From NCBI GenBank assembly GCA_030019365.1, contig JASEFA010000002.1, positions 458,525 through 522,524 of the forward strand: a stretch of 64,000 nt of DNA, written 5' to 3'. Origin of the DNA: Bacillota bacterium (GTDB lineage: Bacteria > Bacillota > Sulfobacillia > JACIYH01). The notes under the pieces are model-generated. The model was not told where the DNA came from. It made no database searches and saw only the letters and a list, made by a program, of their open reading frames with translations. The position numbers were made by a program, and so were the translations under genes. This document shows positions 18,911-61,448 of this stretch, piece after piece (position 1 is the first letter of the stretch; each line of letters starts with the position of its first letter).

Positions 18911-19259
18911 TGGTGGAGGTGCCGGGAGTCGCACCCGGGTCCGCAGGTGAACAGGTGCCAGTCTCTACGAGCGTAGCCCGCGTTTTGCTTTCGCCGCAGT
19001 CGGCTCCCGCGGGCGGGATCCGTCCCGGCTATCCTGGTTGCTTTCGCACCCGCAGCCTGCAGGAGGAAGGCTGCGGAGCTATCCTGCTGGTCGGCACCCG
19101 GCGGGTTCCGCAGGCCTAACCCGTCGGGCGTAGTGGCCGTCTAGGCCGCTAGAGCGAGATTCTCGTTGGCGTTTTGCTTTTCCCGCAGTTTAACGAGGCC
19201 ACGGGACCTCGGCTCGCTGCTCTCACCCGCACTACCCGCGTCGAACCTAGCTCACCCCC
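18911..19259 (-). ncRNA. ssrA: tmRNA (SsrA)
   Basis: 349-nt transfer-messenger RNA for trans-translation. The 5' end GGGGGTG pairs with 3' CACCTCC before ACCA, with the G3:U70 alanine identity pair; the T arm near the 3' end is GGGTGCGACTCCC-like. The resume frame (19170 down to 19141) reads A-N-E-N-L-A-L-A-A-stop with resume codon GCC, a normal ClpXP/ClpAP-type degradation tag. The smpB gene ends 97 bp upstream. Confidence 0.95.
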
Positions 19260-57739: not shown

Positions 57740-60355
57740 TCAGGAGGCAGCAGGGCGGGTGGCGATGCTCACCAGCCTGCCGGGGACGATAACCACGCGG
57801 GACACCTCGCGACCGTTCAGGAACTGCCGCACCCGGGGAGCGGCCAGGGCCTGCGCTTCCAGTTCCTCCGGCGCGGCGTCGGCACGGGCCTGAAAGCGAT
57901 GACGGACGCGCCCGTCCACCTGCACCACCACCGTCACCTCTTCCACCGCCACCAGGGCGGGATCGTACCGGGGCCAGGGCTGCCGGTGGACGCTACCTTC
58001 TCCGCCCAGGTGATGCCACATCTCTTCCGTCAGGAAGGGGGCGAAGGGTGCCAGCAGGCGCACCAGGGCGTGCAGGGCTTCCGCCACCACGTGGCGGTCG
58101 CCTCCGGTACGGTCCTCGCCCGCGTACGCGTAGAGGCCGTTGACCATCTCCATGAGGGCGGCCAGGGCAGTGTTGAGCATGTAGCGGTCGCGTACGTCCT
58201 CGGTGACCTTCTTGATGGTGCGATGCACCAGCCGTCTCACTTCCAGGGCGGCCACGCCGCCGGCATCGGGCCGGGCCGCTCCATCTCCGGCGTTGGGCCG
58301 CTCACCGGCGGCATCGGCGTCCCCCGTGCCCCCTGCCGGCGGCAGCGCCGGGTCGCGCCCCCCGGGCAGCGCCTGCTCCGGGCCGGGCAGGCCGGACACC
58401 TGGCGGAAGAGACCGGGACGAACCTCGCCCAGGCGCCACACCCGCGTGAGGAAGCGGTAGGCTCCCTCCACGCCCCGGTCGGACCAGTCGATCTCCTTCT
58501 CGGGGGGCGCGGCGAAGAGCACGAACACCCGGGCGGTGTCGGCACCGTACTTCTCCACGATGGGCCCGGGCTCCACCACGTTGCCCCGCGACTTGGACAT
58601 GGCTGATCCATCCTTGAGCACCATGCCCTGGGTGAGCAGGCGCCGGAAAGGCTCGGGTTCCGGTACCAGCCCGCCATCGTAGAGCGCCTTGGTCAAGAAG
58701 CGCGAGTACAGGAGATGGAGGACGGCGTGCTCTATGCCGCCCGTGTACTGGTCAACGGGCAGCCAGTAGAACGCCGCCTCCTTCTGGAATGGCCCGGCCG
58801 TGTAGCGGGGGGAGACATAGCGCATGTAGTACCAGGAGGAACACACGAAGGTGTCCATGGTATCGGTCTCCCGCCGGGCAGGACCGCCGCAGCTGGGACA
58901 GGTGGTTTCCACGAATTCCCGGGCGGCTGCCAGCGGCGACATGCCCCTGGGGGAGAAATCCACCATCTCGGGGAGCAGCACGGGCAGGTCCTGCTCGGGG
59001 ACAGGCACGATGCCACACTCATCGCAGTAAACGACGGGGATGGGAGCACCCCAGTACCGCTGGCGGGAGACCAGCCAGTCTCGCAGGCGGTACTGTACCG
59101 CCGGCTGCGCCCACCCCTGCTCCTCGCCCCAGGCAGTGATGCGGGCCTTGCCCTCTTCGTGGGGGGTTCCATCGAAGGGACCGGAGTTCACCATCACCCC
59201 CGGCCCATCGTAGGCGCTGTCCATGGTGTCGCCGTCCAGGTTGCTCCCGGGGGGCTGGATCACCACGCGTACAGGTAGCCCGTGCTGCCGGGCAAACTCC
59301 AAGTCGCGCTGGTCGTGGGCGGGAACCCCCATCACCGCGCCGGTACCATACTCCATGAGCACGTAGTCAGCCACCCAGATGGGGATGGGCTCGCCGGTAG
59401 CGGGGTTGCGGCAGTACGAATCGAGGAAGATACCCTCCTTGGGACGGGCGGCCGCACCCTCCTCCTCTTCTCCCTGCCGCTGGCGGGCAGCGGCCCGCTC
59501 GACGAACTCCAGCACCCGGGCCTCCTGCGGCCTGCCCGCCGCCAGCCGCCTGACCAGAGGATGCTCCGGGGCCAGCACCATGAAGGTGGCACCGAAGAGG
59601 GTGTCCTGCCGGGTGGTGAAAACGGTGATGTCCTCGCCCAGCTCCTCGACCCGGAAGCGGATCTCGGCCCCCGCGGAACGCCCGATCCAGTTGGCCTGCA
59701 TCACCTTCACCCGCTCGGGCCACCCGTCCAGCAGCTCCAGGTCGTCGAGCAGGCGGTCGGCGTAGGCGGTGATGCGGAAGAACCACTGCTCCAGCTCCTT
59801 CCTGACCACCGGAGTGCCACACCGCCAGCACCCGCCCTGCACCACCTGCTCGTTGGCCAGCACGGTGGCGCACTGCGGGCACCAGTTCACTGGGGCGCGA
59901 GCCCGGTAGGTGAGGCCGCGGTGGTGCAGGAACAGGAACATCCACTGCGTCCACCGGTAGTAATCGGGGTGGCAGGTGGATATCTCCCGCTCCCAGTCAT
60001 ACGAGTAACCCATGCGGCGGAACCAGTAACGCAGCTTATCGATGTTCCCCCATGTCCAGTCGGCCGGGTGCATGCCGCGCACGATGGCGGCATTCTCGGC
60101 AGGAAGGCCGAAGGCATCGTACCCCATGGGGTGGAGGACGTTGTACCCGTTCATGCGGTAGAAGCGGGCCAGCACGTCCCCGATGGTGTAGTTGCGCGAG
60201 TGACCCATGTGGAAGTCGCCCGAAGGGTACGGGAACATCTCCAGGCAGTAGTACTTGGGCCGCGAGGGATCCTGTTCCGTGCGGTAGAGGTCCCACTCCT
60301 GCCAGCGGTCCAACCAGTAAAGCTCGCGACGGTCCGGTTCGTAGTTCATGCTCAA
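57740..60355 (-). CDS. leuS: leucyl-tRNA synthetase
   Basis: 871-residue class Ia synthetase. HIGH motif in PYPSGDFHMGHSRN, a zinc-type insertion (WCPQCATVLANEQVVQGGCWRC), the CP1 editing domain (TRQDTLFGATFMVLAPEH), KMSKS in DGSAMSKSRGN, and the anticodon-binding and C-terminal domains. A Gly/Pro/Ala/Asp-rich insert of about 45 residues (58249-58398) interrupts the region between LRQV-type helices and VRRLVHRTIKKV. TTG at 60355 (GGAGGTG 5 nt upstream) is preferred over ATG 60349. Controlled by the T-box leader upstream. Confidence 0.96.
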   Translation of the reverse strand: MSMNYEPDRRELYWLDRWQEWDLYRTEQDPSRPKYYCLEMFPYPSGDFHMGHSRNYTIGDVLARFYRMNGYNVLHPMGYDAFGLPAENAAIVRGMHPADWTWGNIDKLRYWFRRMGYSYDWEREISTCHPDYYRWTQWMFLFLHHRGLTYRARAPVNWCPQCATVLANEQVVQGGCWRCGTPVVRKELEQWFFRITAYADRLLDDLELLDGWPERVKVMQANWIGRSAGAEIRFRVEELGEDITVFTTRQDTLFGATFMVLAPEHPLVRRLAAGRPQEARVLEFVERAAARQRQGEEEEGAAARPKEGIFLDSYCRNPATGEPIPIWVADYVLMEYGTGAVMGVPAHDQRDLEFARQHGLPVRVVIQPPGSNLDGDTMDSAYDGPGVMVNSGPFDGTPHEEGKARITAWGEEQGWAQPAVQYRLRDWLVSRQRYWGAPIPVVYCDECGIVPVPEQDLPVLLPEMVDFSPRGMSPLAAAREFVETTCPSCGGPARRETDTMDTFVCSSWYYMRYVSPRYTAGPFQKEAAFYWLPVDQYTGGIEHAVLHLLYSRFLTKALYDGGLVPEPEPFRRLLTQGMVLKDGSAMSKSRGNVVEPGPIVEKYGADTARVFVLFAAPPEKEIDWSDRGVEGAYRFLTRVWRLGEVRPGLFRQVSGLPGPEQALPGGRDPALPPAGGTGDADAAGERPNAGDGAARPDAGGVAALEVRRLVHRTIKKVTEDVRDRYMLNTALAALMEMVNGLYAYAGEDRTGGDRHVVAEALHALVRLLAPFAPFLTEEMWHHLGGEGSVHRQPWPRYDPALVAVEEVTVVVQVDGRVRHRFQARADAAPEELEAQALAAPRVRQFLNGREVSRVVIVPGRLVSIATRPAAS

Positions 60356-60403
60356 GGGAACACCTCCCCGCTCGGGCGGCACCGGACACTGCCTGTACCT
60401 ATG

Positions 60404-60430
60404 AAAAAGCCCCGTCCCTATGGGGACGGG
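60404..60430 (-). terminator. T-box terminator hairpin in the leuS leader
   Basis: Minus-strand CCCGTCCC (60423-60430), loop CATA, GGGACGGG (60411-60418), then GC and TTTTT (60404-60408). It is the default-off element of the T-box. Confidence 0.9.
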
Positions 60431-60476
60431 AGCATTCCCGCGGTACCACCCCGCTTGATAAAGCAACAAAACCTGA

Positions 60477-60552
60477 TGGTGGAGCCGATGGGAGTCGAAC
60501 CCACGACCTCATGAATGCCATTCATGCGCTCTCCCAGCTGAGCTACGGCCCC
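60477..60552 (-). tRNA. tRNA-Ala (anticodon GGC), embedded in the leuS T-box leader
   Basis: 76-nt complete cloverleaf with encoded CCA. Acceptor GGGGCCG/CGGCTCC contains G3:U70. Anticodon stem CATGA/TCATG, loop ATGGCAT, anticodon GGC. T arm GTGGG-TTCGACT-CCCAT. All stems pair, so it looks functional. It has no promoter of its own visible between the T-box specifier and its 5' end; transcription should come from the T-box promoter at 60746-60774. Confidence 0.95.
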
Positions 60553-60745
60553 ACGCTTTATCCGCTCGCCGCTGTAACGGGCTTCGTCCCGGCTGCAGCT
60601 ACCGGAACACTCTTTCGCTGCATCGACTCCGGGGCGAGTTTGGCGCGCTGCGCGACCGGTTTGCACCACCCACCGGCTCTCTGGACGGGCAGCGGCAGCC
60701 TACTGCTCCCCATCACCGCCGTTTATCCTTTGCAGTTCACAGCCT

Positions 60746-60774
60746 ATTATATGAGCGGAGCCGGCGGACGTCAA
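60746..60774 (-). promoter_or_regulatory. sigma-A promoter of the T-box/tRNA-Ala/leuS transcript
   Basis: Minus strand TTGACG (60769-60774), 17-bp spacer, perfect TATAAT (60746-60751). The -35 overlaps the trkA stop codon. Predicted start near 60739. Confidence 0.85.
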
Positions 60775-61448
60775 GGCAAATGGCCGGTGCGCGCCGCTTC
60801 CTCCAGCACCTTCTCGAAGCGGGCCAGGGCCTCGTTGCGACCCGCCACCACCAGGACGTCCCCTTCGTTCACCACCTCGTCGGCCAGGGGCAGGTAGGTG
60901 GCTTCCTGGCCCTTCTTGATCATGAGCACGTTGACCCCGTAGCGGGCCCGCAGGTTCAGCTGCCGCAGCGTCCTGCCCGCCATCTCTTTGCCCGCGGTAA
61001 GCTCCACCAGGCTGAACTCGGGCGAAACCTCCAGGTGATCCACCACCCTGAAGGCGGTGAGGTTGCGGGCTACCCTGATCCCCATATCCCGCTCGGGGAA
61101 TACCACCCGGTCGGCCCCCAGCTTGCGCAGCACCTTGCCGTGAATGTCCGAGGCGGCCTTGGCGATGACGTACCTGGTGCCCAACTCCTTGAGGAGGATG
61201 GTGGTGAGCAGGCTGGCCTGCAGGTTGCCCATGGCCACCACCACGGCGTCATACTCCCAGACCGCCAGGGCCCGCAGGGCCTCCTCGTCGGTCACGTCGG
61301 CCCGCACCGCCCGCGAGCAGCACTGGCTGATGGCGGCCACCTTTCCCTCATCGTTGTCCACGCCCAGGACGAAGTGCCCCTGTTCAAACAGGGCCTTGGC
61401 CACCGCAGTCCCGAAGCGTCCCAACCCCAGCACGGCGAATTCTCTCAT
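60771..61448 (-). CDS. TrkA/KtrA-type potassium uptake regulatory subunit
   Basis: 225 residues: RCK-N Rossmann domain (FAVLGLGRFGTAVAKALFEQGH, with acidic VDNDE) binding NAD/ATP, and an RCK-C domain (LRQLNLRARYGVNVLMIKKG). Cytosolic gating ring for the TrkH/KtrB channel encoded 118 bp upstream on the same strand. ATG at 61448. Confidence 0.93.
   Translation of the reverse strand: MREFAVLGLGRFGTAVAKALFEQGHFVLGVDNDEGKVAAISQCCSRAVRADVTDEEALRALAVWEYDAVVVAMGNLQASLLTTILLKELGTRYVIAKAASDIHGKVLRKLGADRVVFPERDMGIRVARNLTAFRVVDHLEVSPEFSLVELTAGKEMAGRTLRQLNLRARYGVNVLMIKKGQEATYLPLADEVVNEGDVLVVAGRNEALARFEKVLEEAARTGHLP

Follow-up and report, generated by a model that had tools for sequence, protein, structure and literature searches.

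The leader of leuS, the gene for leucine--tRNA ligase, was found to be a leucine T-box riboswitch that carries a complete tRNA-Ala(GGC) gene within its Stem III, and this arrangement is widespread rather than singular. Judging from the sequences, the leader is likely to be dual-purpose, as the tRNA would be made at each initiation while the T-box would gate only leuS. The locus lies in a 64,000-nt stretch of DNA, referred to here as the window, from a Bacillota bacterium (GCA_030019365.1, contig JASEFA010000002.1, positions 458,525-522,524 of the forward strand; GTDB Sulfobacillia; JACIYH01). The annotated features, in window coordinates, are as follows.

60774-60410, minus strand: leuS leader, from promoter to terminator
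60746..60774, minus strand: promoter TTGACG-17-TATAAT (consensus scan)
60419..60725, minus strand: T-box leader RF00230 (Rfam model positions 1-219 of 219, 100.1 bits)
about 60719-60626, minus strand: Stem I (Rfam covariance model)
60636..60638, minus strand: specifier CTC (Leu), followed by a purine (sequence and RF00230 alignment)
60563..60567, minus strand: GAGCG, the RRRxG element on the 5' side of the Stem III discriminator (purine motif from PMC7583486)
60555..60562, minus strand: Stem III 5' arm, GATAAAGC
60477..60552, minus strand: tRNA-Ala(GGC), complete, with CCA, G3:U70 and U as base -1 (ARAGORN and RF00005)
60457..60464, minus strand: Stem III 3' arm, GCTTTATC
60455..60456, minus strand: AA, the element of this motif on the 3' side of Stem III
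60439..60450, minus strand: T-box core, GGTGGTACCGCG (sequence and RF00230)
60448-60445, minus strand: UGGU of the T-box core, which pairs with tRNA ACCA
60410..60431, minus strand: intrinsic terminator, a stem-loop followed by a T run
57740..60349, minus strand: leuS, leucine--tRNA ligase, 869 aa (TIGR00396, 1021 bits)

By every feature tested, the T-box part belongs to the known family RF00230. The match is full length and scores 100.1 bits against a gathering score of 93, with Stem I placed as in a preliminary description of this DNA. The leucine T-box with promoter, CTC specifier, core and terminator claimed there is confirmed by this match and by the consensus scan, as is the nesting within it of a complete tRNA-Ala(GGC) with G3:U70 and CCA. 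The embedded tRNA has a cloverleaf, a GGC anticodon, a discriminator A and an encoded CCA (ARAGORN; RF00005, 63.8 bits), and its G3:U70 pair was read directly off the sequence. It occupies an 85-nt insert that the RF00230 alignment puts in the loop of the helix preceding the antiterminator, i.e. the apical loop of Stem III. The two 8-nt sequences flanking it, GATAAAGC at 60562-60555 and GCTTTATC at 60464-60457, are perfect complements and were found to be the Stem III arms, as had been suspected; around them, the RRRxG...AA flanks read GAGCG...AA. When the whole leader was folded at equilibrium, the resulting structure was non-native and was left out of the evidence. The CUC specifier (Leu) agrees with the downstream gene, and tRNA-Leu GAG, which reads this codon, has one copy in the window's genome; antitermination by uncharged tRNA-Leu is predicted at this leader.

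The leader promoter matches the consensus at 11 of 12 positions and is the sole promoter-like site found by consensus scan on both strands of 60340-60860. No second promoter, including one dedicated to tRNA-Ala, was found on either strand of this region by the scan, which internal promoters of unusual sequence could escape. The same region holds only one terminator-like site (60431-60410), located downstream of the tRNA-Ala, whose 3' end lies about 70 nt ahead of the terminator's end. Elsewhere in the window, an ordinary tmRNA gene (tag ANENLALAA) was found at 18911-19259; an overlapping longer ARAGORN tmRNA is spurious.

The distribution of the arrangement was surveyed with a pattern indifferent to tRNA type, which required the 3' half of a CCA-terminated tRNA followed after 8-38 nt by a T-box core. 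At least 120 matching stretches were found in 84,980 species genomes, and 109 of the 120 among the matches listed are tRNA-Ala(GGC) according to ARAGORN. The matches listed come from Bacillota, Chloroflexota, Thermomicrobiota, Armatimonadota, Coprothermobacterota and other phyla, and their cultured carriers include Syntrophomonas, Thermosyntropha, Desulfofundulus, Desulfovirgula, Carboxydothermus islandicus and Orenia metallireducens. Within the window's phylum the pattern matched in 64 of 398 genomes and 41 of 267 genera, which are lower bounds as tRNAs without a complete encoded CCA escape the pattern, and both same-genus relatives of the window's genome carry the arrangement. Seven relatives of the window's class with an incomplete encoded CCA (L182, L185, L186, L187, L188, L194, L199) also have a tRNA-Ala inside the leuS T-box. 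Among forty pattern-negative genomes, one per family, an embedded tRNA was observed in three and a leuS T-box without tRNA in eleven. By a rough estimate, the tRNA is present in about half of the phylum's leuS T-boxes.

The preliminary description had allowed for an assembly error. The likelihood of such an error, or of a chance juxtaposition, is negligible given that the arrangement occurs in more than 100 species of several phyla, in cultured strains and in single-contig genomes; the reversed pattern gave no matches in the same 398 phylum genomes, which also argues against chance. Other tRNA types returned by the scan (Ser, Gln, Pro, Leu and Ala-CGC) were rejected since they adjoin chance GGTGGNACCGCG strings; no T-box was found around the non-Ala(GGC) matches inspected (L040, L122 and L127), and L048 and L069 were set aside by lineage only. 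In a Symbiobacterium MAG (L046), unrelated sequence replaces the 5' half of the embedded tRNA, 5' of position 256, with the T-box core and leuS intact downstream, representing either an assembly fault or a broken tRNA.

Stem III is real, conserved and covarying. Of the 112 non-redundant loci, 107 keep the purine motif, with RAGNG preceding the 5' arm and AA following the 3' arm. On average, 4.32 out of 6 pairs form between the arms in these 112 loci, compared to 3.32 out of 6 when the 3' arms were swapped among loci (sd 0.087; maximum 3.65 over 5000 shuffles); these shuffles ignore relatedness and so overstate independence, yet the pair exchanges span phyla. At pair 2, A-U (36 loci) exchanges with G-C (34), and at pair 3, U-A (37) with C-G (31); the duplex energy agrees with the pair counts (z of -12.5 for the 120 loci listed). 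In sixty loci, chosen because 5 or all 6 of the pairs form, the arms have a median length of 8 bp and are separated from the tRNA 5' end by a median of 4 nt, with a gap of 0-1 nt in nineteen of them; in the window, the distance from Stem III to the RNase P site is 2 nt, falling to 1 nt when a ninth, G-U pair is included. The combination RRRxG-Stem III-AA is the T-box discriminator motif, and Stem III is general in T-boxes and required for discrimination (PMC7583486).

A total of 42 tRNA genes were found in the window's genome, in an inventory assembled from sequence stretches of the assembly, and tRNA-Ala(GGC) occurs among them only once, as the embedded gene. This gene is also the only tRNA-Ala(GGC) pattern match in all 45 phylum genomes with the arrangement that were sampled (37 genera, several single-contig assemblies), and within the window's class it is the sole one in 12 of 13. 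From this sole-copy status we infer that the embedded tRNA-Ala is expressed and matured. GCC and GCT make up 62% of the alanine codons in thirty long ORFs of the window. Neither tRNA-Ala(TGC) nor tRNA-Ile(GAT) was found in the assembly of the window's genome; both are probably located in unassembled rRNA operons.

Downstream of the leader, leuS is present in nearly all listed loci with enough flanking sequence, with the exception of L113, where none was found within 395 bases. About 117 of the 118 leaders having a Stem I contain a Leu specifier (109 by a strict pattern, the remainder by eye); one Actinomycetota MAG with the arrangement (L079) shows an apparent UUU or UUA where the CUC specifier is expected. 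The next gene in Armatimonadota is a branched-chain transaminase followed by leuS, and because of this order the T-box there still has the appearance of a leucine-responsive regulator. A gene of about 1 kb separates the leader from leuS in the Armatimonadota-like loci L026, L060, L039 and L071, and in the two that were scanned (L026 and L039) it encodes a branched-chain amino acid transaminase, forming a leucine-related operon. Other intervening genes are acyl-CoA-ligase-like (Pelotomaculum and Desulfofundulus) or encode a GNAT protein (Chloroflexota). T-boxes with an ultrashort Stem I are usually translational; tRNA-bearing leuS T-boxes with a very short Stem I lacking distal loops were observed in L021, L035 and L038 (Coprothermobacterota and Caldisericota), and a clear transcription terminator is present in L038.

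If the leader is dual-purpose, a single promoter would give an RNA that acts as a leucine T-box and from which the cell's sole tRNA-Ala(GGC) is also processed. The tRNA would fold in the loop of Stem III, a naturally variable part of T-boxes, and the discriminator could form intact around it because the Stem III stem and loop tolerate variation. The polymerase would transcribe the tRNA-Ala before reaching the terminator, and both the leaders terminated when leucine is plentiful and those read through in response to uncharged tRNA-Leu would give tRNA-Ala. Its production at every initiation, as originally proposed, is implied by the architecture, since the terminator follows the tRNA and no other promoter was found by the consensus scan. 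Leucine would then gate leuS alone, or ilvE-leuS and similar operons. RNase P would cut the 5' end, whereupon the tRNA would depart, and the decision to terminate or continue probably precedes this cleavage because the end of the terminator is only about 70 nt past the tRNA.

RNase P prefers U at position -1. In line with this preference, U precedes the embedded tRNA in 96 of the 120 listed leaders, against 20 of the 42 tRNA genes of the window's genome. Excision had earlier been attributed to RNase P and RNase Z; cleavage by RNase P is still predicted here, whereas RNase Z is an unlikely 3' processor in the window because the tRNA encodes CCA, an antideterminant for this enzyme (PMC4919913). 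The 3' maturation route likely differs in the seven relatives mentioned above in which CCA is not fully encoded. A conserved function for pairing in cis between the T-box UGGU and the ACCA end of the embedded tRNA was judged unlikely, as several relatives are without a complete encoded CCA.

The riboswitch and the tRNA were also observed apart. Three loci (L213, L219 and L231) have a T-box without tRNA and a short Stem III loop at the corresponding place. L198 keeps the Stem III arms, tRNA and terminator with Stem I lost and the core damaged, L197 keeps the tRNA and a mere trace of the T-box, L206 has a plain promoter-tRNA-terminator ahead of leuS, and L104 keeps the tRNA with the T-box partly or wholly gone. 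The tRNA in L190 and L191 is accompanied by neither a T-box nor leuS, and an rsfS gene precedes it in L191, likewise in L198. No RF00230 match was found in L198, L197, L206, L190 or L191. These five loci and L104, where tRNA-Ala(GGC) outlasts the T-box, mostly together with the terminator, represent a natural deletion series. As tRNA-less T-boxes and tRNA loci with a decayed T-box both occur, neither part needs the other and their functions are separable. In a LeuS tree the rows group largely by phylum and the arrangement occurs on both deep sides. The tRNA-less and T-box-less forms are scattered, giving at least 17 changes among four states in a tree that cannot tell gain from loss and whose sampling favoured the arrangement. 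This picture fits a putatively old arrangement with repeated loss.

The decayed loci bear on whether the riboswitch is maintained at all. L198, L197, L206 and L104, which keep the tRNA with part or none of the T-box, favour a reading of the T-box as a relic, with the tRNA-Ala gene and a terminator that chances to precede leuS as the maintained part. This is very improbable, as the window and most relatives retain an intact specifier, Stem I, Stem III motif and core, which neutral decay would have erased. Excision of the tRNA might instead be regulatory in itself: it would separate the sensor part of the T-box from the part with the terminator and leuS, leaving Stem III as the only possible link between the two, and so reset the switch, set a time window or alter leuS mRNA stability. 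Maturation must indeed cut there, as the tRNA sits between specifier and terminator, and the arms of the sixty selected loci are long enough to join the two fragments (median 8 bp). We regard this as unlikely, since the tRNA-less leuS T-boxes scattered among relatives indicate that cutting is dispensable for regulation, and the decision point follows close behind the tRNA.

A role of Stem III in gating tRNA maturation, where the paired leader and trailer beside the acceptor stem would delay RNase P cleavage and trimming of the 3' end until the switch decides, and thereby protect the riboswitch or tie tRNA-Ala release to its state, is distinctly improbable. The proximity of Stem III could slow tRNA processing, given the median gap of 4 nt, the 0-1 nt in 19 of the 60 selected loci and the 2 nt in the window; however, gap lengths vary widely, and the conservation of Stem III is explained otherwise by its generality and its requirement for discrimination (PMC7583486). 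It is doubtful that the riboswitch is cut apart by the maturing tRNA with Stem III both completing the sensor and controlling the release of tRNA-Ala(GGC), which would link leucine, leuS and Ala-tRNA supply. The interpretation given in the preliminary description is partly supported; its proposals that cleavage alters the switch, that a kinetic window is imposed, or that Ala-tRNA supply is coupled to the switch stay hypothetical. Returning to the dual-purpose leader, the persistence of the nesting across phyla despite separability may point to an advantage beyond this explanation.

The leader shares with transcriptional leuS-type T-boxes of RF00230 a Stem I with CUC, Stem II elements, a Stem III with RRRxG/AA flanks, the UGGN core, the terminator and leuS downstream. 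Unlike in ordinary members, the Stem III loop holds an entire tRNA gene that is essential, present in a single copy and specific for a different amino acid. Among nineteen other tRNA-bearing T-box leaders compared with RF00230, seven reach the gathering score and twelve fall below it, all twelve being full-length. The sub-cutoff scores are probably caused by the tRNA insert, and the low scores may explain why standard annotation overlooked these T-boxes. A bacterial transcript carrying tRNAs together with an mRNA is known from the E. coli tRNA-tufB operon, where the promoter is likewise common to tRNA and protein gene and the tRNA must be excised, whereas its tRNAs flank the gene without nesting in a riboswitch helix. 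RNase P cleaves riboswitches at structures that form transiently (Altman et al. 2005, as cited in PMC11143913); as far as that citation describes, RNase P is able to act on a riboswitch leader as here, but its targets are transient riboswitch structures and not a true tRNA gene. Curious insertions whose function is unknown occur in every T-box domain, with Stem III named for translational T-boxes (PMC7583486); the tRNA insert resembles these Stem III insertions, although the term 'tRNA gene' is absent from that work. No mention of a tRNA gene within a T-box was found in the full-text literature searched, including PMC2494555, PMC3766115, PMC7778990 and PMC7583486, with Vitreschak 2008 and Gutierrez-Preciado 2009 outside its scope, and as far as this literature goes there is no description of a whole tRNA gene, the sole copy of its kind and specific for a different amino acid, nested in Stem III.

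A tRNA-sensing riboswitch and a tRNA gene, whose functions were thought separate, are united here in one widely kept nested structure, in a large class of leuS T-boxes that often fall below the cut-off in standard Rfam scans. The T-box leader would thereby be indispensable on grounds other than leuS, and the arrangement would provide a natural system for the coexistence of tRNA maturation and co-transcriptional riboswitch decisions on one RNA.
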